From Eutreptiella sp. 'Long Island Sound 2002' (Eukaryota > Euglenozoa > Euglenophyceae > Eutreptiales > Eutreptiaceae): a stretch of 64,000 nt of DNA. The position numbers were made by a program, and so were the translations under genes. Shown in pieces: positions 5,986 to 58,761 of this stretch. The first letter of the stretch is position 1; every line of letters starts with the position of its first letter. The stretch spans positions 38,666,844 to 38,730,843 of the forward strand of contig OZ038384.1 in the NCBI GenBank assembly GCA_964036045.1, in the 5' to 3' direction. The notes beneath the pieces are model-generated. The model was not told the DNA's origin. It saw only the letters and a program-made list of their open reading frames with translations, and made no database searches.

Positions 5986-6084
5986 CTGCATTCGGAGCAA
6001 AACCCCGGCCCGAGTGTAGCGCCAATTTCTTTCTGGGGCGAACACATTCGTTCAATCTTTCTTTCTCCTTCCCACGCTTTGTTG

Positions 6085-6577
6085 CCTGGCCCCTCGAGTT
6101 GGGGTTAGGGACTCACAATCCACGCTTCGGTGTGGCCCCTTGAGTTGGGGTTAGGGACTCACAATCCACGCTTCGATGTGGCCCCTCGGGTTGGGCTTAA
6201 GGACTCACAATCCACGCTTTTTGGCGTGGCCCCTCGAGTTGGGGTTAGGGACTCACAATCCACACTTCGGTGTGGCCCCTCGAGTTGGGGTTAGGGACTC
6301 ACAATCCACGATTTTTTGCGTGGCCCCTCGAGTTGGGGTTAGGGACTCACAATCCACGCTTTTTTGCGTGGCCCCTCGAGTTGGGGTTATGGACTCACAA
6401 TGCACGCTTTTTTGCGTGGCCCCTCGAGTTGGGGTTACGGACTCACAATCCACGCTTCGGTGTGGCACCTCGAGTTGGGGTTAGGGAGTCACAATCCACG
6501 CTTTTTTGCGTGGCCCCTCGAGTTGGGGTTAGGGACTCACAATCCACGCTTTTCTGCATGGCCCCTCGAGTTGGGGT
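6085..6577. repeat. 48-bp minisatellite, about 10 copies
   Basis: Tandem units of 47-49 bp carry the core CCCCTCGAGTTGGGGTTAGG followed by GACTCACAATCCACGC. Units differ mainly in the linker (TTCGGTG versus TTTTTTGCG). Open frames across it are repeat artefacts and are not annotated as genes. Confidence 0.9.
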
Positions 6578-7214
6578 TATACCGCGGAACAAAATAAATT
6601 AGGCGTGTTGCTGTCTCGAGACATTATGAACGCATTTGACTCCATCTCACAGTCTCACATGCCTTTGTGGAGCAGCTGCTATGCAGAGGGAGGCGGGGTG
6701 GGAAAAAATGCGCACATCGAAAAAACTTGCGTAACAGCAGCAAATGACCCGGAGACGTAGGGAACTGCTCGCCCCCCAGCCATCAATGACAAGTGTATAG
6801 GAGTGGTCCCATTGGGTATTCCCAATGCCAATGCCCTGCGTAGCAAACACCTTGTGATGCGGCATGCATATGAGAAGGTCCACTGGAGGTAAGTGGATGG
6901 CATGGGCATCGTGTCATTGGACACCCTATTACCGGATAGGCACTAGCGAGAAATTGCCTTGCGACCCGTGGTATGCGTTGCCACGGAATTAAACGCCGTT
7001 CAAATGGATGCGTGAGGAGCGCAACACTGATTCTAGCAAGGAACATTTCAAACTGGGATTCCTCAACTTGGCGAAGCGGCCAAACGCGCATCGTGCTGAT
7101 CAGAACACTGCAATCGAAGCACTTTGCCTTGACTCGGGTGTTTGCAAGACTTTAGCGCAAAAGTGCAATGCACATCGGCGCTATTCATGCCAACAAGGTA
7201 TGGAGGCATGTATG

Positions 7215-16551: not shown

Positions 16552-19500
16552 CTACATCTCAAAACAGCCAGAGTCCGGGGTGGTGGGTGACTCTGGTGGG
16601 GAGTGCCCTGAGCAATCAGTGTCACATATTGAGCAGTGCCAGAAATTGGGCGTGTCTGGCGCCAGAGGCGATGCGGGTTGCCGTGGCGAGTATACAGGCT
16701 GTCTGTTGGAACGCGCCGGCATGCTGGGTGAGTACATGGTTGTTCCGTGTGAGTGTATTTCCACTGAGGCGGGGCTTGATGGCACCGGGCTAGGCGTGTT
16801 GAAATGCCTTCGTTTGGTTGGCCGTGGGACCGAATGGTTTTCACTCCCTGATGCCGTGAGTAGACTGTCCTGCGAAGCCTGAGACTGAATGTAATCCTCT
16901 GTGGAGGCGAAAGACACGGTGGTCTCTGAGAGGGAGCCACTCTGACGACTTACAGGTTCATCCATGAGGCATAAATCCAGATCATTCAAAAGCAGGCGGG
17001 CGGGTGTATCTCTGCACAATGGGGAGGCACTGACCGGTACTCTAATAGGTGTCACGAGGGGTGTCACCATGTTGTGTGTATCTGACTGTGTGCCAGACAT
17101 GGGAGCGGACGGTGTCGCACACGGCGGTGTCGAGGGTTCTTGCACCACTGGGGGTGGGGGTGAACCTGCATGTACTGCGGGCTCGGGGGGGGATGGGTGC
17201 TTGTGTGAAAAAATGATCACTTTGCTGTGGTTCGCTTGCGTGCCTGCCCTGCCCTCCTCTCTGTCCCCGGGGGGTTCTGGGTATAGCGGGTTTTGCTGCC
17301 GTCCCCATTCTGCCAAATCATTGGCACGTTCATTACCCTCTATCTGCACATGTGATGGGACCTTGTACCAACTCAGTATACCTTGGTGGTCCGCGATGAG
17401 CTGTAGAAGCTCTTCCCATAGTTCGGGGTGTAGTATGGGGCCGTGTGATCCGTGCCAGCCACGGATTTTCCAGATTCGCGCTGCGCCGGTGGCCCCCAGG
17501 TAGACCAAGGCAGAGTCTGTCATCAGGGCCAAGTTTGCTTGTGGAAAATTTTTTAGTCCCTGAGTCACTGCGTACACCTCAGTGGCATTATTTGTTTGAG
17601 GTAGGTGTGCTGGCATAGGTGCCCCTAGATCCAGTGTGTTCGGCACATGTACTCCGTATCCACCAATATACCCTATGGGCAGGACCCTTTCTGATGAGCC
17701 GTCCGTATATATCTGAGTCAGCCCTTGTGCCACGATTCCCTCCAGTTGGGAGGCAAACTCTTGCTTTGCAGCTAGTTTCCTGGCCATCTTGGCGTTATTG
17801 CCCGTGCGTCGTGGCCTCGGCAAATTAGCAGAACAGGAGAGGTTGGGGTGAACCAGCTTACCCTCTTCTAAAAGCTGCAGGACGCAGTCCGTGAATATAC
17901 TTAGCTCAGCAGTGGACAGCCACCTCAGAGGGTATTGTTGCCAAGTGGCTAGTTTTTTCACCCAGCCAGTCAGGAAGCTTTCCCACGTGACGGTGAAACC
18001 CTTAATCCGGGCTGATGTTCGCAGACCCCAGTTGACCACGATGGCCGACCAGGCCAGAAGTCCTGGTGCAGTACTCAAGCTAAGGGAGGGGGTATCCCAG
18101 ACCAATGCGGACACAGAAGAGATGGGGTTACCTTCAATCACAATGGGCGCATACGCCTTGTTGATGCAGTCAAATGCAATTTTCAAAAAGCGGCAGTCCG
18201 TGCAGAGATGCTTGTGGGTTTCAGGCACCCCATCAATAGGGCAGTTGATCTGTCGCGGGTATATTCTTGCTTGGCGTTGTCCCGTCGGGAGTTTACGCCA
18301 TAATGCCCTGTATAGGAAATGCCTGTCCGTGTCTGGTAACTGTAGGGCCATGAGGGCCTTCCATGTGTCCCTGGATTGTCTGGTGCAGAAATTGTTCGGC
18401 TTGGCTAGCTCCCTGGACACAGCCGAGGATTGCCAATGGAACCAAAAGCTCGGCACATGATGTACTGCAGGGGGGGAACTGCGCAGTGATAACAGCTTTC
18501 GCTTGTGTAATCGATACACAGATTTCCACGTGTGTGGTAGTGCTTCGCACAGTTCCGGACTCTGGACGATGTCTCTAAGAAATAGCACATTTTTACGAAT
18601 CAGCGATGGGGAGTAGTAGGTCCTGCCTGACGACTTCGCAAACAAGCGATTGTGCCACAGCGGTAGCAGGGCCGGTTCTATTGCTGGCAGAGTGGGTGAA
18701 GCCAAATTCATGGTGACTGAGTATGCCTTGGCGGCAAAGGCCATGGTAGGCATGGTGCTGTAAGGAACAGGTCCCATGCTGAAGAAAGGAAGGGTTGCCG
18801 AGGTGCAGTGCACTCCGTATCTCTGGGCCCAGTGCTTGAAGGGCACGGCTAGGATGTTGGAAATTGTCGCTGGTTCTTCGACGTACTGCAAAAATATGGA
18901 GGCGTGTTGCCACATCAGAAAGGATTTCGGGGGCATCAGTGAGAAACCCCCTTCTGATACAGGTAGCCCCAGGATGGGGAGAGTGATGCCCCATGGGTTC
19001 AATTTGAGTGCAATGCGGTACACGTCCGCCAGTTGCGCACAAATCGCCTTTGTGGGGAAGATGACGCGTGCTAGTACCGTCAGTACAGGCAATACCCATT
19101 GCTTGAGTAGTTCTATGCGTTGTTGGAGTGTCAGTCCCCATTCTTGCATGCGCACCGCTCGGTGGAGAGCCTTCTGCAGTGCCGGAGCAAATGACTCTTC
19201 GGGTGTCGCATTGCCTAACAGTACCCCAAGGTATTTAGCGGATGGTTTGATGGCAATCGGGAGAGCGTTGATGAGTGATTTGTGATGCAGGCTCCATGTT
19301 CCTTTCAACAGAATTGCCGACTTGTCGAAATTGACCCTGAGCCCCGTGATCCTGGTGAAGAGGGCAAGCTCGTGCAGAACTCCATGAATCAATTTCACAC
19401 AGAGATGCTGGGGAAAGGGTAGAATAATCAGTAAATCGTCTGCATACAGAAGTGAGCGGATGTCGTGGTTCAGTGAGCGCAAATGGGCAATTATTGGTGA

Positions 19501-22040
19501 AATGAGCATCGAGAACAAGATGGGTGAGAGAGGGCAGCCCTGCCTGACTCCTGAGGTGGGGGAATATCCATGCAGATGCATGATTCCTTGTGGTAGGAGG
19601 AGTTTGATTGGCGCTTGAAACAGATGAAGCAGCGCAGGAACATATCCCTGTGGCAGTCCCATCATTTGAAAGAAGACAGAGCAATATGTGTGCGTAACGC
19701 TGTCAAAAGCTTTGGAAACGTCTATGGGGAGAAAGGTTGCTTCTGGGTAGTGCCTCCAGGAACCGAAAGATTCATACAAATGATCAAACATGTATCTACC
19801 GCGAATAAAGCCCTTTTGCTCAAGAGGGGTTAAATAGATGATGAGGTCTTTGAGATGCAAAGAGATAGATGCTGCCAACCATTTCAGTGCCACATTCTGG
19901 AGTACTAGCGGTCGTAAATAACCTGCTGTGGGCACACCTGAGCCCTTGGGGATGGGATTGAGTAGTGCTGTGGTCCACTGCTGCGGCAGTGTGCCATCAA
20001 CCAAAAATTGTGTGACAATGCGCAACATGACAGGCGCAAATTCATGCAGAAAGGAACGGTACACTTGTGCCGTAAAACCGTCTTCTCCTGGGGAAGACGT
20101 GGGATGCAAAGACAATAGGGCTGCCTGAATCAGGTCTAGATCTATCGGTTTCGTGAGCATGCGGAATAGTGACTGTGTGTTTTTGCCATGAAAGAAGGGG
20201 TGCAGATATTGCCGGCATGCATCCTCAGAGGCACCAGTGGCCTGCATGGTAGACTTCAGTTTGCTGGTGATTTCGTGGGCGATTGCGTCAGCCGAGTGTA
20301 AGGACTGGCCGGTGGTTGTCCGCAAGCATGAGAGCTTTCGTTTTATTTTGAGTTGTTGGAGGAGTCTCCAAAGCTCTCTTGACTTATCCTTTGCCGTGTT
20401 GGCTGTGTCAAGACTTTCTTTCAGCTGTCGCTGTACCTGTTCCCTGGCCTGTTCACCCTCTGACTGAGCCTGTAACATCACCAACATAGAATAGGCAGAA
20501 GATGGGTCTGGTGGGTGGCAGCCCAGGTCGTTCAGATGATCCCATGCCAGTGGTGAGATATGTGTAGTGGAGCACTCCATGACGAGTGCCTGTATGTTGG
20601 TGAAACCCGAGGGGTTGTGATGCTTCTCGTAGTCGATGGCTGTGCGCATGATGATGTGTTGTGCGTCCTTCCACCAACAGAAGCCCTCTGAGCGTAGCCC
20701 CATCACCTCTGCTTTCAGTGTGTCGACCAGTTCTTGATTATGCAAAAAATTTGTCGGGCAGCGGGTGCGCTTTGCAGTGTTTGATTGCGGTGGTGGGTCC
20801 ATCGTCATTAAGACACATTTGTGGTCGGAGGCGCCTAAGAATAGAGGATAGCATCCTGTAACATACTCAGAGAGTTCTGTCGGGAAGTGGATTCTGTCAA
20901 TTCGCCTTCTGCGGTCCTTTATTGTTGTGCCGTGTGTGTGGTTGGCTGGTGGCGTCGCCGTGGTCCTGTGCTGTTTTGGGGGTGGTTTTACTTGTGGTGC
21001 GTCTTGTGTCGTGTGACTGTGTTTGCGTTTTTTCCCGGCTGGTGGTTTGTTTGGTGTTGCCGCAGGGAAGCCCCAAGTCCATCCTTCCAAATGTGACGAC
21101 ACCGATTTGGCTTCATGCACAAATGGATAGGCGTCCATCAGTTCATTGGTGGCTAGGAATTGGGTCTCGACTGTTCTAGCTGCAGTCACCTCAGAATCAA
21201 TGGATTGTGGGGGGCAGGCTACATCTCTGTGGGGCAGGATGAAAGAATTATGGTCTGCCAATAGTATAATCCTGTCATGTCTGTGGACAAAGAATTGATG
21301 TAGGGCTGCCCATTGCGCTTGCCTCAATTTGGCCTCATGGTGGAAGTGGGCCACCAAAATCGGGTAGCAGGCCACGAAGGGGGAAAGTAACTTGACCAAC
21401 ATCATTCTTGACTGCAGCTCAGGGTGTGTAGGGATGGGGATGGGCTCTGGGGGTGATGGCATGGACCAATCCTGCCTGAAGGCTACGCTTGCACCACCTC
21501 TTTTTTTTTTTTTAACTCGTGACCGAAGTTCCACCAAGTGTCCATTGAGAGTACACATAGCAGGTCATGGGTCAGTGACAGGGCCGACTTTGGGTATGGG
21601 TTTGGTATGACCTACCCTCACCAAGACGGCTGCGGCGGGGTGGCGGGAGGAACGAGTCTTGCGCCTTGCCCCACCCCTGTCGCCCCGTTTGCACGGGTAT
21701 GCGCGTCCTCCCGGACCTCTCGGTTGCACCCGGTTACGCTTGCACCACCTCTTCCCTGTGGGGAGAGTTGAGCATAAAAATGAAAGTTGAAAGCTTTGAA
21801 GTGTTCCTGCAAACGGATCAGATCTTCGGGCGTACTGAGGTGGTGCTCCAGTATCCCCATGACGGAGACCTCTTTTTGTACTAAGAATTTTGTGATGAAG
21901 TCCACGCGTCGCTTCCGTTGACCAGAAGGGGTTACTTCTGCGCAGATTCCATTGGCATTGAACACCGCAATGCGTGTTTTTGATGCAGGTGGGAGCAGTT
22001 TTATCTTATTCAAGGGAGCAGTTTGTTGGGTCGGATTCAT
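16552..22040 (-). CDS. LINE endonuclease-RT-zinc finger-RNase H ORF, split by insertion
   Basis: This is the replication protein of the LINE. It would nick target DNA with an APE-type endonuclease and copy the element RNA in situ. The N-terminal endonuclease part (22040-21735) shows FNANGI and MGILEHHLS. After the insertion the frame resumes (ATG-downstream frame 21558-16552, 1668 aa) with ADHNSF and HRD near residue 103, IDRI and SDHK (endonuclease C terminus), and RT motifs SSPGEDGFTAQVY, DVSKAFDSV, GVRQGCPLSPILF and YADD at 705-708. A CX(n)H/C zinc motif lies at 1106-1122 (CPIDG, ETHKHLC, DC). RNase H follows it, with YTDGS at 1284, TEVYA near 1326, MTDSA near 1346 and SHVQIEGNERAND near 1402. 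A Ser/Pro-rich tail of about 240 aa ends in TAG. Both sides of the insertion encode RGGASV in matching frames, so without the insertion the ORF would be 1745 aa and uninterrupted. Confidence 0.93.
21484..21502. repeat. Target-site duplication, left copy
   Basis: TACGCTTGCACCACCTCTT is repeated exactly at 21735-21753. It flanks the SINE-like insertion and encodes RGGASV on the minus strand. Confidence 0.95.
21503..21734 (-). mobile_element. SINE-like retroposed insertion, 232 bp
   Basis: On the minus strand the insert begins CCGGGTGCAACCGAGAGG and ends in an A run of 11 (T run at 21503-21513 on the plus strand). It is bounded by an exact 19-bp target duplication. The short length, poly(A) tail and long duplication are the marks of LINE-mediated retroposition. 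I do not see convincing tRNA-type A and B boxes, so the source RNA is unknown. It has no coding capacity. It interrupts the LINE endonuclease domain. Confidence 0.88.
21735..21753. repeat. Target-site duplication, right copy
   Basis: Exact 19-bp match to 21484-21502. Confidence 0.95.
22037..22040 (-). other. ATGA stop/start overlap before the RT ORF
   Basis: TGA of the small ORF and ATG of the endonuclease-RT ORF share bases. Such overlaps allow termination-reinitiation by the same ribosome. Confidence 0.85.
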
Positions 22041-42627: not shown

Positions 42628-43340
42628 GATAGGGTGATGACCAGCTTTTAATATCCTTGACGCGCTGTACTATTAACAAGGGCAGGCACCTTTTGTAATC
42701 CTGGACGCTCTTGGGTCGGAAGGGGCCTGTGGGTTAGGGTTACCTATGCCCTATCCCCTCAGTCCCATCCCCCTTCGTGATCCAGCACGACAGAAGGACT
42801 AGGCCACCGAGGTCAGTTGTCCTCCCCCTCTGCCCTCCCGTGGCCCTGCCTTGGGCCATTGGTCCCACTGTGGACGCCGGTGCTGCCCCCTGGCCCCTGT
42901 GAGCCCCCCCTCTCCATTCCTTGGGGGGCACGTGAGGCATGTCCCCACCGTCTCGAAGACCGTGTCTTGCCGCAGCTGCCCCCAAAACGCCTGCCGTGGG
43001 CGCCCCTGCCCCCTAACCACTGGCCCCCTACTAGGTGCACCTCATGATGGCAGAAGCAGCAATGCCGCACCCCCCTGTGCTCCTTTCATGACACCCCCAG
43101 GGCGTGGTGGTGGTCATGGTGGTGATAGTTGGGTGTGTCGTGTGGAGCACAAGGCAGGGGTGTTTCCCACGGGAGTGTCTTCCCTAGGATGTGGTGGCGG
43201 TGGTGGTGGCGGTGGTGGAGTTTGCCATGGGGAGCACGGGGTGGGGGTGCTTTCAACGAGGGTGTCACCCCCAGGGTATAGTGGCGATGATGGTGGTGGT
43301 GGTGGTGGTGGAGCGTGCCGTGTGGAGCTTGGGGCGGGGG
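42628..43340. repeat. Long direct repeat R, left copy (713 bp)
   Basis: It starts GATAGGGTGATGACCAGC and ends GGAGCTTGGGGCGGGGG. It is about 98% identical to 58024-58761 outside a GGT microsatellite, which is shorter here. It ends exactly where the YR retrotransposon begins on the left. It has no convincing gene. Confidence 0.9.
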
Positions 43341-44524: not shown

Positions 44525-45472
44525 CTACAGACGAACTGACCCAAAGCTCTGCACAAGGTGCAGCCCCCCGCACAACGCACTCCACTTGTTTGCCGTCTCA
44601 ACCTTTGCCCTGGTAATGCTTGCGGGTGTCAGATCTGGCAATCGGGATACAACGTCAGCAGGCATGCGCGCAGTATCAACCCAGACAACATTCAAGACCA
44701 TGCCCGTGTGCCACAACAAGTTCCAAAGAGCACGAAGTATCTTCACTTGCGTACATGCTCTCGTCGACGCCCTCACATTGGACGCATTGTAGCAGGCCGC
44801 CGTATTGTCCACAAACAAGGAGACCCTGTGCCACTTCTGCGTTACCGCAAACCTACAGGCATGTAGGACACCGATGAGCTCTACCTGTTGTTGGTTCTTG
44901 GCTGGGACCTTTCGCGTTCGTATGACTCCATTTCGTCCAGAGATACCCAGGCGGTACCCTCTAGTAGCTTCCGCTGCATCCACCGACAGGAATGGTGCAA
45001 ATCCAAAGTGCCCAGGCATGGGGTCAACCGTGGCTGGTAGATATGAGATTGCCAGCGCATCGAACAGCGCCGATATCAGGGCCAGGCTCGGGCGGTGCTG
45101 AAAGCGATGATGTCCCCATTGGAACCGATGCCAGCCTTGTAGGAATAGGGTGACCACCTTTCGTGGTCCAAACGCCCATTGCATTTTTCCCGTGACCCGT
45201 TCCGCCACCTTTGGGGATATAGGCGAGCAGGCCGTTTTTATGGCAATCCCCAAGCACTTGGTGAGCATCTTGTCGGTGTTTTGCACCTCCCCCTTAGCCA
45301 CGTCGAACACTTTTCCCAGCCACAGGACATTCTGATGTGGCTTGAGGCAAGATTTGGTAGAGATACGCAGACCCTTCGCCGTCAAGAATGCCGCCAGTTG
45401 TGGACCCAGACTGTCCATACACTCCTTGTCACGTGACAAGATCAGGACATCATCGGAATTGTGGAAACGATG
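44525..45472 (-). pseudogene. YR element RT (3' part) and RNase H
   Basis: Sequence resumes right after the left target duplication as HRFHNSDDVLILSRD (RT motif C, with NSDD where YxDD is usual). It continues through GLRISTKSCL and NVLWLGKVFD (motifs D/E). RNase H follows, with FLSVDAAEATRGYRLG, VELIGVLHA, VSLFVDNTAACYN and VWVDTARMPADVVSRL, the last being typical of DIRS-class RNase H. It ends in TAG at 44525. The RT fingers and the rest of the palm lie 9 kb away at 54500-55249; the two parts are in the same frame when the insertion is ignored. Confidence 0.88.
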
Positions 45473-45477
45473 GATGT
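45473..45477. repeat. 5-bp target duplication, left copy
   Basis: GATGT, matched at 54500-54504. The two copies flank the foldback element. With one copy and the element removed (9,027 bp, divisible by 3), the RT frame reads through as LDI followed by HRFHNSDD. Confidence 0.75.
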
Positions 45478-45670
45478 ACCTGCGGCTCACTGGTGGCTAA
45501 GTGGAAATGTGAAGTTGGGGCTCATTTGGGGCTCAGTTGTGCATTGTGATGTCTTTGTGCTTGTTTGTTGTGCGTTCTGCATGCTAGGTAATGTGCATTT
45601 AATGTTTTAAGAAGTTTTAGATACTCACTTGGTCAAGGTTCAAGGGGGGGGGGGTACTTTTTTTGGCGAC

Positions 45671-45823
45671 GGCTCAGTTGACTGAGCGCCCGACTGAGCC
45701 GTCACAGAGCCGTCACTGAGCCGGCTCACTGAGCGCTCACTGAGCGCGCCAAATGGCTCAGTGAGCTCTCAGTGAGCGCTCACTGAGAGCTAATTGGGGG
45801 CTCACTCAGGGCTCACTCAGGAG
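45671..45823. repeat. GCTCACTGAGC palindrome array, outer left
   Basis: Tandem GCTCACTGAGC-type units, each a small inverted repeat (GCTCA-C-TGAGC). The mirror copy is at 54141-54299. Confidence 0.85.
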
Positions 45824-47399
45824 TTTCTCCCCCTTTCCGCCCTCTCTTCCCACCCTTGGTGGCCCACACTTCACCCTTTTCACACCAACATTGGTCCGCA
45901 GTTCTCACCACGTCTTTTCTCCAAGAACTTGAGCGTGCATGCACACATACATACTTACATACATGTACCCGTGGCGACAAACACACAAACATCCAAACAC
46001 ACACACTTCGTCAGGGACACAAATATCCAAACACATACACACACATACACCATACACACGTCCACACGCACATGCACATGCACAAATTGATAACCACATT
46101 CATTCGTGTGTGCAATTATCTTGCGTGTACATAAACACATGGCCACATTGAACCATGTGAAGTGAAGGGCTAGGCAGAGATGGTTACGGTGTTGGGGTTC
46201 GGAGATATGAACCTAACCATTTGCAAGGGTGTTCCTTGTTGCCTCATGACAATGGCACCCACCCACCCCACCACACACGGGCGCGCGCGCCATGAAGCAC
46301 AAATAGGGCACAGAGGATATTGCTCGCTTTTGTGAGGTTCATCACACAACCATCTTGACCTACACCATGACACAGCCATTCCCCTCCCTCCTTATCCCCT
46401 CCCGTCCCCTTTTGCCATGCCTGATCCCCCCGCTTACCCCATGCCAAGCCCTTCTCTTATCTTGCCTGTCGCGTCCCCTTGCCCTGCCCTTGCCATGCCT
46501 TCCCTATTTGCTGGCCATGGCATCGAGTGCATGATGGTGGCGGCAATGACGATGACCTTTGCAGGTATGTTGTGCTATTGTTTGTGTTTGTGGGTGTGTG
46601 CTTGTGCCCATGCGCATGTGCACAAGTGTGGATGGTTTGTTCGTTCTTGGTTTCTCTCATTTAGTGTGTTTGTATGTATGTTTGTGTGTGAGTCGGGGGG
46701 GGGGCTTGCTTGGATTGATGCGTGGGTGAAGGTGTCCTTGTGCGTCACTGTGAGTGTGTGACTGCATTCTTTGGTTTCTGGTTGTCTAGGTTTGTGTGCG
46801 TATGTGGATTCGTGACTGTGTGTACGCGCAGGTGTGTGTGTGTGTGTGTGCCAATGTGTGTGTGTGTGTGTGTGTTGCAGCTTTTGCAGCTGTTGTTTTG
46901 GATGCGGTTGTTGGTTTTGGTGTTGTGTGGCATAGGCTTTGATTGTGTGCGCATAACATTGTGTTTGTGGCTGCAGATGCAGGTATGGTTGTGTTTGTGG
47001 TTGTGGCTAGGTTCTGGGCTTGCGTGAGGTTGTTGCCATGGCTGTTGTGGTAGCTGTCGTTCTTGGTGTGGTTATGGTAGTGGCTGTGGTTGCGGCTTTG
47101 GTTGTGGGTGTGGGTGTGGGTGTGGGTGTGGGTGTGGGTGTGGGTGTGGGTGTGGGTGTGGGTGTGGGTGTGGGTGTGTGTCTGCAAGCTGCGTTGTGTG
47201 TGGATTTGGTTGTGCTTGTGTCAGTGTGTGTGGCCCTGGCTGTGGCGAAGGCTGCAGTTGCAGCTTTCACTGTGGCTGCAGCTGTTCTTTGGGTTCTGGC
47301 TGTAGCATTGGGGGGGGGGGGGGGATGCGCGGTAAAGGACTGCAAAGAGGGGGGCTCAAATCACCATCCACCCCCTCACAAAAAAGACCGCACCAAGTT

Positions 47400-47770
47400 T
47401 ACAGTGACAGTGTACAGTGACAGTGTACAATGACAGTGTACAGTGAGAGCATACAGTGAGTGTAGAGTGACAGTGTAGAGTGCTAGTATAGAGACTTGGG
47501 CGTTGTGGCGGACGTACTGTGTGTGGGGATACATTCTATGAGACCTTGGGGAGTACAGTGTACAGAGTACAGTGTACAGTGTACAGTGTACAGTGACAAT
47601 GTACAGTGATAGTGTATAGTGACAGTGTGCAGTGGCAGTGTGCAGTGTGCAGTGACAGCGTACAGTGCCAGAGTACAGTGTACCATGTACAGTGACAGTA
47701 GACAGTGACACCATTGACAGCCTACATGGATAGTGTACAGTGACAGTGTACATGTACAGCGTACAGTGAC
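47400..47770. repeat. ACAGTG/GTACAGT satellite, left arm
   Basis: Interrupted tandem ACAGTGTACAGTGAC units. The mirror copy is at about 52230-52620. Confidence 0.85.
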
Positions 47771-47778
47771 AGTGAACC

Positions 47779-47925
47779 ATGAGTGAGCCCTCACTGAGCG
47801 CTCACTGAGCCATTTGGCGCGCTCAGTGAGCGCTCACTGCATTTGGCGTGCTCACTGAGCGCTCAGTGGGCGCGCCAAATGGCTCGATGAGCGCTCAGTG
47901 AGGGCTCACTCATGGTTCACTGTCA
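47779..47925. repeat. Inner GAGC palindrome, left arm
   Basis: A local perfect-looking palindrome centred near 47850: ATGAGTGAGCCCTCACTGAG on one side and its reverse complement on the other, with GGCGCGC/GCGCGCC cores. The mirror structure is at 52045-52240. Confidence 0.8.
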
Positions 47926-47929
47926 CTGT

Positions 47930-48515
47930 ACACTGTCATTGTACACTATGTATTGCACACTGCACACTGCACACTGTGTAGTGCACACTGCACACTGCAT
48001 ACTGCGTATTGCACACTGCACACTGCACAATGTGTGTTACAAATTGCACACTGCACACTGTAATGCACACTGCACATGTAATGCACACTGCACACCCTGT
48101 AATGCACATTGCGCACTGTGTATTGCACGCTGCACATTGCACAGTGCACCGTGTGCACTGTGCAGTGTGCAATGCCCAGTGTGCACTGTGCAGTGTGCAA
48201 TACACAGTGTGCAGTGTGCATTACGCAGTGTGTAGTGCGCAGTGTACAGTGCGCACTGCACACTGTGTGCTGCACACTCCACACTGCACACCGTAATGCA
48301 CACTGCACACTATGTATTGCACACTGCACACTGTAATGCACACTGCACACTGTGTCATGCCCACTGCAAACTGTGCCTTACAAACTGCACACTTCACGTT
48401 GTCATGCACACTGCACACTGTGTATTGCACACTGCACACTGCACACCGTGTGTTACAAATTGCACACTGCACACTGCAATGCACACTGCACACGGTGTAT
48501 TGCACACTGCACGGG
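47930..48515. repeat. CACACTGCA satellite, left arm
   Basis: Short units (GCACACTGCACACTGTGTAT, TGCACACTGTAATGCACACT) repeated with variation. The mirror region is 51235-52040. Confidence 0.9.
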
Positions 48516-48534
48516 CATTTGGTGAAACCTAGTA

Positions 48535-48770
48535 TGCACGTAGCAAAACCTAGTAAAATGTAGCAAAACCTAGTAAAATGTAGCAAAACCTAGTAAAAAG
48601 ATTTTTTTTTAAAAAAAAATTTTTTAAAAAAATTTTTTTAAAAAAAAATGTTTTTACTAGGTAAAAAAAGCAAAAATTTTAAAAAAAATTTTAAATTTTT
48701 TTTTTCTACTAGGTAAAAAAAGCAAAAAATTTAAAAAAATTTCCCTTACTAGGTTACTAGGTAGTGACAA
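48535..48770. repeat. CCTAGTAAAA hairpin cluster, left
   Basis: CCTAGTAAAA repeats on one side and TTTTACTAGG repeats on the other surround long A and T runs, so the region can fold into AT-rich hairpins. It separates the left arm from the central gene module. A G run of 12 follows near 48810. Confidence 0.8.
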
Positions 48771-49015
48771 ATTTGGACTTGAATTTGAACAAAAAAAACC
48801 AAGTTTATGGGGGGGGGGGGGTCAACGGTAGGTGGTATTTATGTTTAAGGGCATGGTGCCCCCTGGTCTATTCCAGGCCACTTGTGTAAGTGGCGCCCCA
48901 CCCGGGCCAAACCGTGTATTGCAAGGTCAGCAAAAATAAAATGAGGCTCAAGAAAAGAAGGAGCTTTTATATGATAAATATATATATACATATATGAGGT
49001 GCACACACGCGTGCT

Positions 49016-50089
49016 TTATATGAAGTCGCAAAACACGCGCTTGTAGATGAGGTCCGACTTCTTGTCTTTGTAGGTGGGTTGTGCAGAGGGAGGGTTGTGC
49101 TTGCACATGTTACGAATCACGCCCGTGGTCTTTTCTTCCAACTCTTTGATTAGATTTTTGTCATACTCCAATCTCCCAGAGCCATCTTTGGGGTAATGCT
49201 CTGGAACAAAAAATTCTTCACCAGGGATCACCACCTTTGGACGGACCTCATCTACAGAAGGCGGCTTGTCAACCACAAGCCGGTCACCCAAGGCGAATGC
49301 CAACACAATGCATGCCAGTGTGGCAGTAAATTGCAAATTCCATTTGCGCAATGCCACACATATCTCCGTGGAACAGAAACCGGAAGCATGCAGGGCACAC
49401 TGATAAACTCCACATTCAGGGCACGTGATGTGGGCTGTGTCGTCGCAAAAAAAGCACGACGAACGGCTGGGTGAACAATAGGGCGTAGCATACATCCGTG
49501 CCAAGGTGCAACTGGGTGTGGTCTCAATAGGGGGGGCAGGCGGAGAACTGCGATAGTGCAAAGCTGCCTGTGCAATCTCACGCCACAACCACAATATGTC
49601 TTGTGGAAGTTGGATGCTACCGTTGACAACACGCCTAGACAAAAGGCAATGTAGCATCATAAGGCAGGCAGGATGGCAGCTCACACCGTCGTCCTGATGT
49701 AGGAAGGTGGAGCAGAGGGGGGCTATAGCAAAAGCTACACTGCCGAACTCACCCAAAAACTTGTCCCACCTCTTCAGCGCCCTTGCCTTAATGCCTTCTT
49801 GTTCGGCAATGAGGTTCACTATTGCCAACTCCTCGGTGTTTGCACCCGCTATGTACGGCTTGTAACACAGCGGATCAAACACGAGGCACAAGAAAGTACA
49901 TGTTGGGGAAACCAAAAACAAGCGCAGCACCCAATGTGCATTGCGCTTATTACAAATCTGCGCCACGAGCAAGGGGGGCGCAAAGATCATATCAATGGAC
50001 GCCGCGTTCAAAGTACGCCGCGCCCATGACTCAGCCAACACCTCCCTACGACCCAACGGTAAAGCCGACACATTCCACAATTTACCCAT
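49016..50089 (-). CDS. Ulp1-like (C48) cysteine protease with Cys/His segment
   Basis: 357 aa, ATG at 50089, TAA at 49016. Ulp1-family proteases cleave SUMO-like or polyprotein substrates using a His-Asp-Gln-Cys tetrad. Here these are NAHWVLRL (His52), VFDPL (Asp72) and LHQDDGVSCHP (Gln132 and Cys138, with the usual six-residue spacing). The part before His52 is shorter than in typical domains, so an upstream exon may be missing. Residues 212-239 form a Cys/His zinc-binding pattern (C-x2-C-x7-C-x2-C-x4-C-x2-H-x4-C: CFFC, CPECGVYQCALH, FC) that resembles C-terminal fingers of some transposases. A hydrophobic stretch near 253-270 (TATLACIVLAFALG) might be membrane-associated. The C terminus is charged. 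Ulp1-like proteases are known in several eukaryotic DNA transposons. This is the only credible gene in the foldback element. AT-rich sequence follows its stop. Confidence 0.8.
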   Translation of the reverse strand: MGKLWNVSALPLGRREVLAESWARRTLNAASIDMIFAPPLLVAQICNKRNAHWVLRLFLVSPTCTFLCLVFDPLCYKPYIAGANTEELAIVNLIAEQEGIKARALKRWDKFLGEFGSVAFAIAPLCSTFLHQDDGVSCHPACLMMLHCLLSRRVVNGSIQLPQDILWLWREIAQAALHYRSSPPAPPIETTPSCTLARMYATPYCSPSRSSCFFCDDTAHITCPECGVYQCALHASGFCSTEICVALRKWNLQFTATLACIVLAFALGDRLVVDKPPSVDEVRPKVVIPGEEFFVPEHYPKDGSGRLEYDKNLIKELEEKTTGVIRNMCKHNPPSAQPTYKDKKSDLIYKRVFCDFI

Positions 50090-50304
50090 GAATGATGAGT
50101 AAGCTCCTTCATCAGATCAATGGTAAAGTGTCACAAACAACCAAGCAATAAAAGTACACTGCATGCGTATTATAAGGGTGTCATCCGTGCCCACGGGACT
50201 CATTGTCGCCGATTTCTTCGTGCCTGCCTCAGTGCCTTCCGCAGAGCTTTGCTTGGAGGACATTGTTGCAAACACGAAGGGCAAAAGGAAAAAGGGGAGG
50301 CCCG

Positions 50305-50390
50305 GTAACCTAGTAAAAAAAAAACTTTTGTTTTCACTAGGTTCTAAAACCTAGTAAAAACAAAAACTTTTTTTTTACTAGGTTCCGAAA
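50305..50390. repeat. CCTAGTAAAA hairpins, right of the protease gene
   Basis: Two inverted CCTAGTAAAA/TTTTACTAGG pairs with A/T-rich loops lie between the gene module and the 85-bp minisatellite. Confidence 0.8.
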
Positions 50391-50392
50391 CC

Positions 50393-51050
50393 CCCACCGC
50401 TGCAGAGCGGGGAGCAAAATCAGAAGTGGCCCACAAGTGGGCAAAGTGGCTACCTCACCCCTGTCGTATCGGGGAGCCCCACCGCTGCAGAGCGGGGGGC
50501 AAAATCAGAAGTGGCCCACAAGTGGGCAAAGTCGCTACCTCACCCCTGCCGTATCGGGGAGCCCCACCGCTGCAGAGCGGGGGGCAAAATCAGAAGTGGC
50601 CCACAAGTGGGCGAAGTGGCTACCTCACCCCTGCCGTATCGGGGAGCCCCACTGCTTCAGAGCGGGGGGCAAAATCAGAAGTGGCCCACAAGTGGGCAAA
50701 GTGGCTACCTCACCCCTGCCGTATCGGGGATCCCCACCGCTGCAGAGCGGGGGGCAGAATCAGAAGTGGCCCACAAGTGGGCAAATTGGCTACCTCACCC
50801 CTGCCGTATCGGGGATCCCCTCCGCTTCAGAGCGGGGGGCAAAATCAGAAGTGGCCCACAAGTGGGCAAAGTGGCTACCTCACCTCTGCCGTATTGGGGA
50901 TCCCCTCCGTTGCAGAGCGGGGGGCAAAATCAGAAGTGGCCCACAAGTGGGCAAAGTGGCTACCTCACCCCTGCCGTATCGGGGAGCCCCTCCGTTGCAG
51001 AGCGGGGGGCAAAATCAGAAGTGGCCCACAAGTGGGCAAGGTGGCTACCC
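50393..51050. repeat. 85-bp minisatellite, 7.7 copies
   Basis: Each unit contains CTGCAGAGCGGGG, AAAATCAGAAGTGGCCCACA, AGTGGGCAAAGTGGCTACCT and CACCCCTGCCGTATCGGGGA. Because 85 is not a multiple of 3 and no unit contains a plus-strand stop, all three plus-strand frames are open for about 200 codons. These frames are not evidence of a gene. Confidence 0.95.
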
Positions 51051-51052
51051 AG

Positions 51053-51228
51053 TAACCTAGTAATAAAAAAAATTTTTGTTTTAACTAGGTTCTGAAACCT
51101 AGTAAAAACAAAAACTTTTTTTTTTACTAGGTTCCCAATACCTAGTAAAAAAACGTGTTACCTAGTAAACTGTTACCTAGTAAAAAAAAAACTTTTGAAA
51201 AAAAAATTTTTTACTAGGTTTCACTACA
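51053..51228. repeat. CCTAGTAAAA hairpins, right of the minisatellite
   Basis: Several inverted CCTAGTAAAA/TTTTACTAGG pairs with A and T runs precede the right arm, echoing 48535-48770 and 50305-50390. Confidence 0.8.
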
Positions 51229-51229
51229 G

Positions 51230-54200
51230 ACCTTCACTGCACACTGTACACTGTGTATTGCACAGTGCACACTGCATACTGTGTATTGCACACTGCACAC
51301 TGCACACTGTGTGTTACGAATTGCACACTGCACACTGTAATGCACACTGCACACTGTGTAATACACTCTGCACACTGTGTATTGCGCACTGCATACTGCA
51401 CACTGTGTATTGCACACTGCACACTGCACACTGTGTGTAGTGTGCACTACACAGGGTGTAGTATGCCTTGTGTGATGTAATCCACACGGCACACCGTGTA
51501 ATGCACACTGCACACTGTGTCATGCACACTACACCCTGCACCCTGTGTATTGCACATTGGGTATTGCACAGTGCACCGTGTGCAGTGTGCAATACCCAGT
51601 GTGCATTACGCAGGGTCCGGTGTGTAGTGTGCAATACACAGTGTGCAGTGTGCATTACAGTGTGCAGTGTGCAATTTGTAATGCACAGTGTGCAGTGTGC
51701 AGTGTGCAATACACAATGTGCAGTGTGCATTACAGTGTGCCGTGTGCAATACACAATGTGCAGTGTGCAATACACAGTGTGCAGTGTGCAGTGTGCAGTA
51801 CACAGTGTGCAGTGCGCAGTGTACATTGCGCACTACACACTGTGTACTGCACACTGCACAATGTGTCATGCACACTGCACACCGTACAGTGCAAGCGTTC
51901 GGGCGCTCAGTGTGTAGTGTGCAATACACAGTGTGCGGTGTGCATTACAGTGTGCAGTGTGCATTGCAGTGTGCAGTGTGCAATTTGTAACACACAGTGT
52001 GCAGTGTGCAGTGTGCAATACACAGTGTGCAGTGACAGTGTACAGTGACAGTGAACCATGAGTGAGCCCTCTCTGAGCACTCACTGAGCCATTTGGCGCG
52101 CTCACTGAGCGCTCACTGCGCCGTTTCGCGCGCTCAGTGAGCGCTCAGTGAGCGCGCCAAATGGCGCAGTGAGCGCTCACTGAGCGCGCCAAATGGCTCA
52201 GTGAGCGCTCAGTGAGGGCTCACTCATGGTTCGCTGTCACTGTACACTGTTCATGTACACTGTACACTGTACACTGTCCATGTACACTGTCAATGGTGTC
52301 ACTGTCTACTATCACTGTACATGGTACACTGTATTCTGGCACTGTACGCTGTCACTGCACACTGCACACTGTCACTATACACTGTCACTGTACATTGTCA
52401 CTGTACACTGTACACTGTACACTGTACACTGTACACTGTACTCTGTACACTGTACTCCCCAAGGTCTCATAGAATGTATCCCCACACACAGTATGTCCGC
52501 CACAACGCCCAAGTCTCTATACTAGCACTCTACACTGTCACTCTACACTCACTGTATGCTCTCACTGTACACTGTCATTGTACACTGTCACTGTACACTG
52601 TCACTGTAAACTTGGTGCGGTCTTTTTTGGGAGGGGGTGGATGGTGATTTGAGCCCCCCTCTTTGCAGTCCTTTACCCCGCACCCCCCCCCCCCCCGCAC
52701 AGCTACAGCCAGAACCCAAAGAACAGCTGCAGCCACAGTGAAAGCTGCAACTGCAGCCTTCGCCACAGCCATCGCCACACACACTGACACAACCACAACC
52801 AAATCCACATACAACGCAGCTTGCAGACACACACCCACACCCATACCCACACCCACACCCACACCCACACCCACAACCAAAGCCGCAACCACAGCCACTA
52901 CCATAACCACACCAAGAACGAGAGCTACCACAACAGCCATGGCAACAACCGTACACAAGCCCAGAACCACGGCCACAACCACAAACACAACCATACCTGC
53001 GTCTGCAGCCACAAACATAATGTTACGCGCACAAAATCAAAGCCTATGCCACACAACACCAAAACCAACAACAACATCCAAAACAATAGCTGCAACACAC
53101 ACACACACGCACACACCTGCACGTACACACATTCACGAATCCACATACACACACGAACCTAGGCAACTAGAAACCAAAGAATGCAGTCACACACTCACAA
53201 CCATTCACGCACAAAGACACCTTCACTCACGCATCGATCCATGCAACCCCCCCCCCCCCCACACACACAAGCAGACATACAAACACACTAAATGAGAGAA
53301 ACCAAGAACGAACAAACCATCTACAGTTGCACACATGCGCACATGCGCATGGGCACAACTACACACGCACGCAAGCACGCACACACACACCCACACACAT
53401 AATAGCACAACATACCTGCAAAGGTCATCTTCCTTGCCGCCACCATCACGCACGTGATGCCATGGCCAAAAAATAGGAAAGGTAGGACAAAGGGGGCGGG
53501 ACAGGCAAGAGAACAGAAGGGCTACGCACAAGGGAAGCGGGGGAACACAGCATAGCGAAAGGGGAGGGGAGTGGATAAGGAGGGAGGGGGATCAATGTGT
53601 CATGGTGTAGGTCAAGATGGTTGTATGATCAACCTCACAAAAGCGAGCAATGTCCTTTGTGCCCTACTTGTGCTTCATGGTGTGTGTGTGTGTATGGGGT
53701 GGGTGGGTGCCATTGTCATGAGGCAACAATAAACACCCTTGCAAATGGTTAGGTTCATATCCCGGAACCCCAACCCCGTAACCATCTCTCCCTAGCCCTT
53801 CACTTCACATGGTTCAATGTGGCCATGTGTTTATGTACACGCAAGATAATTGCACACACGAATGAATGTGGTTGTCAATTTGTGCATGTGCATGTGCGTG
53901 TGGACGTGTGTATGGTGTATGTGTGTGTATGTGTTTGGATATTTGTGTCCCTGACGAAGTGTGTGTGTTTGGATGTTTGTGTGTTTGTCGCCACGGGTAC
54001 ATGTATGTAAGTATGTATGTGTGCATGCACGCTCAAGTTCTTGGAGAAAAGATGTGGTGAGAACTGCGGACCAATGTTGGTGTGAAAAGGGTGAAGTGTG
54101 GGCCAGCAAGGCCGGGAAGAGAGGGCGGAAAGGGGGACAAACTCCTGAGTGAGCCCTGAGTGAGCCCCTAATTAGCTCTCGGTGAGCGCTCACTGAGCCA

Positions 54201-54499
54201 TTTGGCCCGCTCAGTGAGTGCTCAGTGAGCGCTCAGTGAGCCGGCTCAGTGACGGCTCTGTGACGGCTCAGTCGGGGTGCTCAGTCAACTGAGCCGTCGA
54301 AAAAAAGAAACCCCCCTCGGTCAAATCCTCTTGGCCTAGGGATTGGTGTCCCTTTGGGGATATTCCAAAACCCCAAGCCACCCCCGAAAGCCACAACTTT
54401 TCACATTAAACCCCTTGAAGGACACCACTTAGCCCCAAATGAGCCGTTTTAGCCCCAGCTGAGCCCCAAGTTCACATTTCCAAGTGAGCCGCAGGTACA
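51230..54499 (-). repeat. Right arm of the foldback element
   Basis: Reverse complement of the left arm in the same order. It contains a CACACTGCA satellite (51235-52040), a GAGC palindrome (52045-52240), a GTACACTGT satellite (52240-52620), a CACCCA array (52830-52880), CACA/TGTG-rich sequence and the outer GAGC array (54141-54299). Confidence 0.85.
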
Positions 54500-54504
54500 G
54501 ATGT
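54500..54504. repeat. 5-bp target duplication, right copy
   Basis: GATGT, matching 45473-45477. Confidence 0.75.
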
Positions 54505-55249
54505 CGAGCCCCAGCGCGTGGTTGTCAAAGAACTCCCTCAACAACGCCGCCAAGGTGTCCTGTGCCAGTACCGGGGAAAATTTCCACCCAAACGGGAGGC
54601 AGTGGAAGTGCGCCCCTTGTATGCGAAATAGTCCCCTATGCTCAACCGGGATTTGCAAGCTCCAGTAGAAGTTGGATATGTCCAAGGTGATGCCCCATAA
54701 TGGTGCCCCTTGGTGTATCTCCCTTTGGATGGTCTGAAGGACCGTATGAATGGACGGAAGCTTGACCTTGCGCAACGGTACCTTCGACTAGTCATTCAGA
54801 TTTCGCATGTCAATGATGAACGAGCACTTCACATCATTTTTGGGTTTAACGAACGCCGACACATTGTCCGTGAGGTCTTCCCACTCAGGGGCTCCCAAAC
54901 ACCCGGGGTCACGACACAGGAACCCATCATCCACCAGCACTCCAATCATGCGCCTAGTGTGTAAAGACGGTTGCCACACATCGAATCTCCCACAATCCGG
55001 CCCCGACTTCCAACTCCGTATATCCCAGATGAGGCGCTTCGGGATGTTCGCGTTCCATACATCCAAGGGGATATCCAGGCTGCCCCTCTTTCCAAGGCCC
55101 GTAGCAATCATTCCTTCTGAGATGCCTCCTGACAGGCCATCTCCATCATATCCGTCGTAAATCCTGGCCCAGTAAGTCCCAGATAAGGTTATGCAGAGCA
55201 TCCATGTGACTGAAGATTCTTTCCAGGTGCGCCTGCCAACCTTCCACAT
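54500..55249 (-). pseudogene. YR element RT, N-terminal part
   Basis: The frame from 55249 shows KPKNDVKCSFIIDMRNLND (RT motif 1), then one in-frame TAG (54788-54790), then VPLRKVKLPSIHTVLQTI, motif A ITLDISNFYWSLQIP (Asp near 54682) and motif B CLPFGWKFSPVLAQ (near 54598), ending LGLDI at the insertion point. Upstream coding continues in another frame (55400-55146, e.g. IPWNELFQATLAVILRARER), so a frame change lies near 55150-55190. The protein is continued at 44525-45472. Confidence 0.85.
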
Positions 55250-57941: not shown

Positions 57942-58026
57942 TCTTTAAAAGATTCTATAGTGAAAGAGCATATCAGTGGCATTATGGGGTGAATCCTGTG
58001 ATTCGCCTAAAGGCGAATCCCTTGAT
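57942..58026. repeat. YR element repeat A1 (85 bp, terminal)
   Basis: The 5' terminus of the element in minus-strand orientation. It matches A2 with one mismatch. Its last three bases, GAT, are also the first three of repeat R. Confidence 0.93.
58000..58019. promoter_or_regulatory. Putative recombinase core site, terminal copy
   Basis: GATTCGCCTAAAGGCGAATC, identical to 43525-43544, lying 7 bp inside the element end. Confidence 0.55.
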
Positions 58027-58761
58027 AGGGTGATGACCAGCTTTTAATATCCTTGACGCGCTGTACTATTAACAAGGGCAGGCACCTTTTGTAATCCTGG
58101 ACGCTCTTGGGTCGGAAGGGGCCTGTGGGTTAGGGTTACCTATGCCCTATCCCCTCAGTCCCATCCCCCTTCGTGATCCAGCACGACAGAAGGACTGGGC
58201 CACCGAGGTGAGTTGTCCTCCCCCTCTACCTTCCCGTGGCCCTGCCTTGGGCCATTGGTCCCACTGTGGACGCCGGTGCTGCCCCCTGGCCCCTGTGAGC
58301 CCCCCCTCTCCATTCCTTGGGGGGCATGTGAGGCATGTCCCCACCGTCTCGAAGACCGTGTCTTGCCGCAGCTGCCCCCAAAACGCCTGCCGTGGGCGCC
58401 CCTGCCCCCTAACCACTGGGCCCCCTACTGGGTGCACCTCATGATGGCAGAAGCAGCAATGCCGCACCCCCCTGTGCTCCTTTCATGACACCCCCAGGGC
58501 GTGGTGGTGGTGGTGGTGGTGGTGGTGGTGGTCGTGGTGGTGATAGTTGGGTGTGTCGTGTGGAGCACAAGGCGGGGGTGTTTCCCACGGGAGTGTCTTC
58601 CCTAGGATGTGGTGGCGGTGGTGGTGGCGGTGGTGGAGTTTGCCATGGGGAGCACGGGGTGGGGGTGCTTTCAACGGGGGTGTCACCCCCAGGGTATAGT
58701 GGCGATGATGGTGGTGGTGGTGGTGGTGGTGGAGCGTGCTGTGTGGAGCTTGGGGCGGGGG
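58024..58761. repeat. Long direct repeat R, right copy (738 bp)
   Basis: It begins exactly at the right end of the YR element. It is about 98% identical to 42628-43340 except for an expanded GGT microsatellite (58502-58540). Confidence 0.9.

Follow-up and report, generated by a model that had tools for sequence, protein, structure and literature searches.

Organization of the locus

The window analyzed here is a 64,000-nucleotide stretch of the Eutreptiella sp. 'Long Island Sound 2002' genome (contig OZ038384.1, positions 38,666,844 to 38,730,843). It contains a 9-kb unit that is bounded by long inverted arms, interrupts a reverse transcriptase (RT) gene, and has near its center an open reading frame (ORF) of 357 aa. 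An earlier sequence-only reading had treated this as one mobile unit, i.e. a foldback transposon devoid of a transposase that carries a C48-type cysteine protease gene as its cargo, and had considered it to be an unfamiliar class of element. The 9-kb unit is real, but we conclude with high confidence that it is composite, consisting of two nested DNA transposons: a derivative of a Mutator-like element (MULE) with an Ulp1-like protein lies inside a foldback element.

The nesting is most directly apparent from a second foldback copy in the assembly to which the window belongs (2.28 Gb, 2,205 contigs). This copy, C7 (44098235-44104631), is 6.4 kb in length and lacks exactly the gene-bearing center of the window unit (48513-51234), while aligning to the window on either side of it and continuing across the join. 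The sequence CACTGCAC occurs once at the C7 join and on both sides of the insert in the window, where it forms an 8-bp duplication. In a search with the DNA of the inner 3' end, 39 of the 40 scored matches (from 1,669 candidates) begin at 48513, which marks this position as the terminus of a family. All 18 of the flanks that were read, among 39 other copies, are DNA unrelated to one another's surroundings in the window. The corresponding ACCAAATACCC also closes all ten loci that were picked for their long frames, among them L009. Since the inner element is separate and its protein is part of a MULE fusion, as described below, the protease is not the cargo of the foldback, and the transposase belongs with the protease. 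The features are listed in Table 1.

Table 1. Coordinates of the nested elements and their target sites within the window
Feature	Position	Strand	Description
Outer foldback element	45475..54499	.	9,025 bp with the nested insertion counted; ends in TGTACCTGCGG...CCGCAGGTACA
Left foldback arm	45475..48512	+	Layered tandem repeats: 11-bp ACTGAGCGCTC, GT-rich, GGTGTG, GTACAGT, and TGCACAC units
Right foldback arm	51235..54499	-	Reverse complement of the left arm
Outer target duplication, left copy	45473..45474	.	GA
Outer target duplication, right copy	54500..54501	.	GA
Inner element, putative MULE-Ulp1 internal-deletion derivative	48513..51234	-	Terminus GGGCATTTGGTGAAACC at the 3' end (plus-strand reading)
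Inner 8-bp target duplication, left copy	48505..48512	.	CACTGCAC; C7 empty site
Inner 8-bp target duplication, right copy	51235..51242	.	CACTGCAC
357-aa ORF	49016..50089	-	Ulp1-like core, Cys/His finger, and tail; 95% identity with residues 222-575 of P0001
Remnant of parental 5' leader	50081..50293	-	87% identical to L009 949-1160; immediately next to the C-terminal coding part
85-bp minisatellite of the inner element	50392..51049	-	Also 5' of the ORF in L009 (1-827)
Interrupted RT frame, upstream half	54500..54775	-	...NHALGLDI; RVT_1 E 6.2e-5, below cut-off
Interrupted RT frame, downstream half	44525..45474	-	IHRFHNSDDVLIL... to end

The outer foldback element and its target site

The ~3-kb inverted arms described previously were readily recovered. 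In a BLAST comparison of the region with its own reverse complement, 45648-48439 matches 51620-54316 collinearly and in inverted orientation, with 86% identity over 2.85 kb. No other inverted match in the window is as long (low-complexity filter on, E up to 1e-20), the runner-up being a 518-base match within the right arm. When the alignment is divided into 23 steps of 150 columns, identity between the arms is ≥0.90 in 16 of them, and it drops at the two outermost steps (0.52 and 0.74) and toward the inner end. Thus, the unit exhibits the characteristic features of the foldback class, long inverted arms of tandem repeats together with a flanking target duplication. Further copies of the arms, which the sequence-only reading had proposed as a check of its foldback assignment, are numerous. 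Using 801 bases of the left arm as query, 40 of 1,850 candidates were scored, window included; all 40 are ≥95% identical, and 39 begin at the first base of the query, which lies eight bases inward of the element end. Because two of the matches are both ends of one C15 element, the genome contains at least 39 outer elements rather than 40. The terminus TGTACCTG is conserved in 27 of 30 loci (window included) having different outside flanks, and it exhibits a single mismatch in the other three (L022, L025, and L048). Therefore, we take TGTACCTG as the terminus of the family, which places the right end at 54499 and the left end at 45475, instead of the 45478 given before.

Right ends were sought in 20 outer copies where the far end of a 6.4-kb element would be expected. 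The right terminus is found at this place in 11 copies, and none is present at 6.0-6.8 kb in the other nine. Three of these nine were read for 2 kb from +2.9 kb, two of which are shorter elements of 4,661 and 3,567 bp, while the third contains arm sequence throughout the 2-kb stretch, which stops before any right end. In the parts of the outer element that were read, we saw no gene of its own, and outside the first 0.77 kb of copy C7, its six longest ORFs are all satellite-coded.

The target duplication itself was confirmed, but at a length of 2 bp (GA) rather than 5 bp, since the GATGT reported earlier includes a TGT that was assigned to the target and to the terminus alike. Both ends were compared in 17 copies (window included), and 16 of these have a duplication of ≥2 bp. 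All 11 copies with a right end at the expected place are duplicated (nine by exactly 2 bp, one by GTC, and one by CCCC), as are both of the shorter elements (AT and TC) and two of three additional copies compared by eye (both CA, the third being a mismatch on C15). The 8-11 bp duplications of MULE-like elements are not seen in the outer element.

The interruption of an RT coding region, also part of the sequence-only reading, holds as well. Eleven of 18 relatives of the RT frame span the insertion site and none of the 11 contains an insertion there; P0114, for example, reads GLDI-HRFHYLDDVLIL without interruption. The RT family is multi-copy, with clusters of up to 46 members. A direct repeat of ~0.74 kb with 95% identity flanks the RT gene (42628-43340 and 58024-58761), and its two copies may be terminal repeats belonging to the retroelement into which the foldback inserted. 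Elsewhere in the window, 16552-21558 is a LINE-like open frame of 1,668 aa without a stop (RVT_1 E 5.6e-23, RNase_H E 6.8e-17). In the assembly as a whole, a 21-base spliced-leader pattern of Euglena is present 3,569 times, and its reversed control is absent.

The inner element and its protein

The 357-aa ORF, previously described as the only gene of the 9-kb unit, is by eye the sole ORF of ≥100 aa in this unit once satellite-coded and overlapping frames are set aside. Its relatives number 107 at E up to 0.1, and every one of them is from the source 'ena'; the longest measure 550 to 584 aa. Locus L009 contains one open frame of 1,425 codons (1,384 from the first matching Met), which includes both a MULE region and the Ulp1-like C-terminus, and its residues 407-495 match the Pfam MULE model PF10551 (E 1.6e-4, 22.4 bits). 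A second match to PF10551 (E 2.9e-5, 24.9 bits) occurs in P0107, where it is fused to part of the Ulp1-like region. BLAST also shows P0096 and P0108 to overlap both the MULE and Ulp1-like halves, and a MULE C..H motif can be read by eye. The gene-holding frame comprises 790-1,074 codons in the other nine long-frame loci. With both regions in one frame, the window protein corresponds to the last quarter, at the C-terminus, of a fusion with a transposase. Thus, a relative with a transposase beside the protease, for which the sequence-only reading had suggested a search, does exist in L009, and it is the transposase domain of this longer relative (with matches below the curated cut-off) that identifies the inner element as a MULE.

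Judging from its sequence, the 2.7-kb inner element has the anatomy of an internal-deletion derivative. The leader remnant, which is located upstream of the long ORF in L009, directly abuts coding sequence matching L009 base 5388, and ~4.2 kb or more of the L009-like parent is gone at this junction, including the MULE region. Other junctions are found at other loci, such as L013 and L016. TGAAACCTAGTA is present near both inner ends, with the outermost ~ten bases having diverged. Between the two subfamilies, nonsynonymous divergence (dN) is 0.42-0.44 and synonymous divergence (dS) is 1.27-1.43, as determined from the 16 of 18 loci that were usable (L014 and L018 were dropped), which represent 15 copies because L005 and L010 refer to a single locus. 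The lower dN suggests that the protein was under purifying selection prior to the deletion.

The 85-bp minisatellite beside the MULE-Ulp1 gene can be read without a stop in several frames, and the point of its fusion to the gene differs among P0003, P0052, P0099, and P0107. Therefore, predicted proteins of the family may begin with satellite-coded residues. A separate tandem array at 6072-6579, with a unit of ~48 bp as estimated from self-match spacing, matches the satellite-coded part of P0105.

Alternative readings

The symmetric placement of the ORF between the arms would be equally expected of a single foldback whose own gene is the protease. However, such an element is refuted by the C7 copy, unless C7 is itself an excision product, and it is also at odds with the unrelated DNA found next to the inner terminus in 18 of 18 copies and with the ORF being the C-terminal portion of a longer MULE fusion. 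Consequently, we consider a single element to be extremely improbable. It is also very unlikely that the foldback itself is a member of the MULE superfamily, like Tm1 or FARE, and is mobilized by the MULE-Ulp1 transposase. MULE foldbacks have indeed been published (PMC3169594) and the MULE-Ulp1 family is abundant in this same genome, whereas the 2-bp duplication seen in all but one of the 17 copies differs from the mostly 9-bp (8-10 bp) duplications described for Tm1 (PMC3169594), and the TGTACC termini differ from the GGG(C/T)ATTTGGT of the MULE-Ulp1 family. A better candidate is a non-autonomous foldback of the PlavakaA-like type (CMCT clade), which we view as a realistic possibility that still falls short of being probable. 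PlavakaA families share with the outer element a duplication of 2 bp and ends of the form 5'-TGT..ACA-3' (PMC12730594), yet these are just two short features, and 2-bp duplications also occur in Harbinger relatives (PMC12730594) as well as in Mariner/Tc1 (PMC3706591). The Plavaka model PF18759 was silent in this genome, but it was silent in every control genome too, so its silence is uninformative. As a tentative proposal, the outer elements could be a numerous foldback family that is moved by a PlavakaA-like transposase cutting with a stagger of 2 bp, with arms that act as satellite factories from which layered repeats have spread genome-wide. To our knowledge, this transposase group is not known to make foldbacks.

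A separate question is whether the 357-aa protein is a relative of Ulp1/C48 at all, or else an unrelated zinc-finger protein. With respect to the C48 assignment of the sequence-only reading, the catalytic order supports it and the profile search, whose failure that reading had named as a refutation, does not. In an alignment of 22 sequences, H52 and D72 are nearly invariant and Q132 and C138 do not vary at all. Among the 107 relatives plus the window, H52, D72, Q132, and C138 are retained in 79/84, 77/87, 85/93, and 84/98 of the sequences having a residue there, respectively. This is the His-Asp-Gln-Cys order of Ulp1, in which Gln is likewise six residues ahead of Cys. The Pfam C48 family (PF02902) was not listed for the window ORF or 50 members at E up to 10, nor for 10 relatives scanned with an E limit of 1, in searches where the HMMER filters discard most matches above about 0.1. 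There was also no convincing sequence relative of the protein in the PDB, and the only structure model is poor (mean pLDDT 49.8) and yielded no useful match in a fold comparison, all of which would be compatible with an unrelated finger protein. Even so, this poor model places a strand-strand-strand-helix arrangement around the catalytic residues, and MULE proteins with Ulp1 domains are known (PMC2836005). Overall, an unrelated protein seems unlikely, and from the conserved H-D-Q-C order, which is the sole basis for C48, the domain is quite probably related to Ulp1. Given the profile misses and the poor model, we refer to it as Ulp1-like.

Several observations weigh against two nested elements with a MULE-Ulp1 fusion as the source of the inner one. 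The satellite at the inner insertion site gives a match of ≥8 bp in 3.6% of random cut-point pairs, so the 8-bp duplication by itself is weak and it is the empty site that carries the argument. The inner right terminus AAGGTCTGTAGTGAAACC resembles the left one imperfectly, and the 5' end is known from one copy. Both of the MULE matches (22.4 and 24.9 bits) fall below the Pfam cut-off of 27.6, and no Pfam MULE match was obtained for P0096 or P0108-P0111. In addition, L009 lacks 170 residues of P0109 ahead of the MULE region, and a complete MULE-Ulp1 parent was not found, its length of ~1,550 aa being an estimate made by addition. As for the outer element, the C15 copy is flanked by TA and TT without a 2-bp match (1 of 17 copies), and the PF18759 search of the genome, which gave no match in the controls either, found no transposase for it.

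Proposed history

A non-autonomous foldback of ~6.3 kb with the ends TGTACC...GGTACA entered the RT gene of a repeated retroelement, as marked by the 2-bp duplication. Its mobilization in trans is presumably due to a cut-and-paste transposase acting on TGT..ACA ends with a 2-bp stagger, for which the published PlavakaA type (PMC12730594) would be the closest match, and its arms may have been enlarged by tandem-repeat expansion. Later, the 2.7-kb MULE-Ulp1 derivative inserted near the center of the palindrome with an 8-bp duplication, as the empty site shows. Prior to this insertion, the derivative had lost ~4.2 kb or more from the leader into the Ulp1-like region, including the MULE domain, as its junction indicates, perhaps via abortive gap repair similar to that of Ds or dMu deletions. 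The parent would have encoded one protein of ~1,550 aa comprising a MULE transposase, an Ulp1-like cysteine protease domain, and a Cys/His finger. By analogy with its family, the protease-like part probably acts upon SUMO-like or ubiquitin-like conjugates, which might aid transposition or an escape from silencing.

Comparison with known systems

The apparent new class, a foldback carrying a protease, dissolves into two nested elements. Of continuing interest are two families, a numerous one of foldbacks that make 2-bp duplications and a protist one of MULE-Ulp1 fusions. The ends of both of these high-copy transposon families are now fixed, and neither was found in the literature searched on Euglena transposons. 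In its arms, the outer element resembles Tm1 and FARE (MULE), Galileo (P), and the Drosophila FB elements, all of which have long composite repeat arms and are often non-coding, and it differs from them in its 2-bp duplication and TGT..ACA ends. The target duplications of Galileo and Drosophila FB are 7 bp and 9 bp, respectively. Those of Tm1, a MULE foldback, are 8-10 bp (PMC3169594). Thus, the 2-bp duplication sets the outer element apart from the MULE and P foldbacks compared here, and it also provides a handle for finding the transposase. PlavakaA of the CMCT clade shares the 2-bp duplication and the TGT..ACA termini, whereas it was described from fungi in PMC12730594, of which the consulted sections make no mention of foldback arms; for the outer element, it is the transposase that was not found.

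The inner element is similar to the internal-deletion derivatives Ds and dMu, which retain their termini and have lost an internal coding part, except that a C-terminal protease-like ORF remains open here. Its family combines a MULE transposon with an Ulp1-type cysteine protease domain, as do KAONASHI/KI-MULE and the Mutators with Ulp1. Mutator transposons of hydra, lancelet, and plants carry Ulp1 domains, with a figure of PMC2836005 aligning Ulp1 and a PHD finger. In KI-MULE, Ulp1 is in reverse orientation (PMC2528002), whereas the domain described here is C-terminal and in the same frame. Relative to these known cases, the Ulp1-like domain is also too divergent for Pfam, and the window copy is a deletion derivative. 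The MULE-Ulp1 fusion frame therefore adds a protist case to the question of why transposases recruit SUMO-type proteases.

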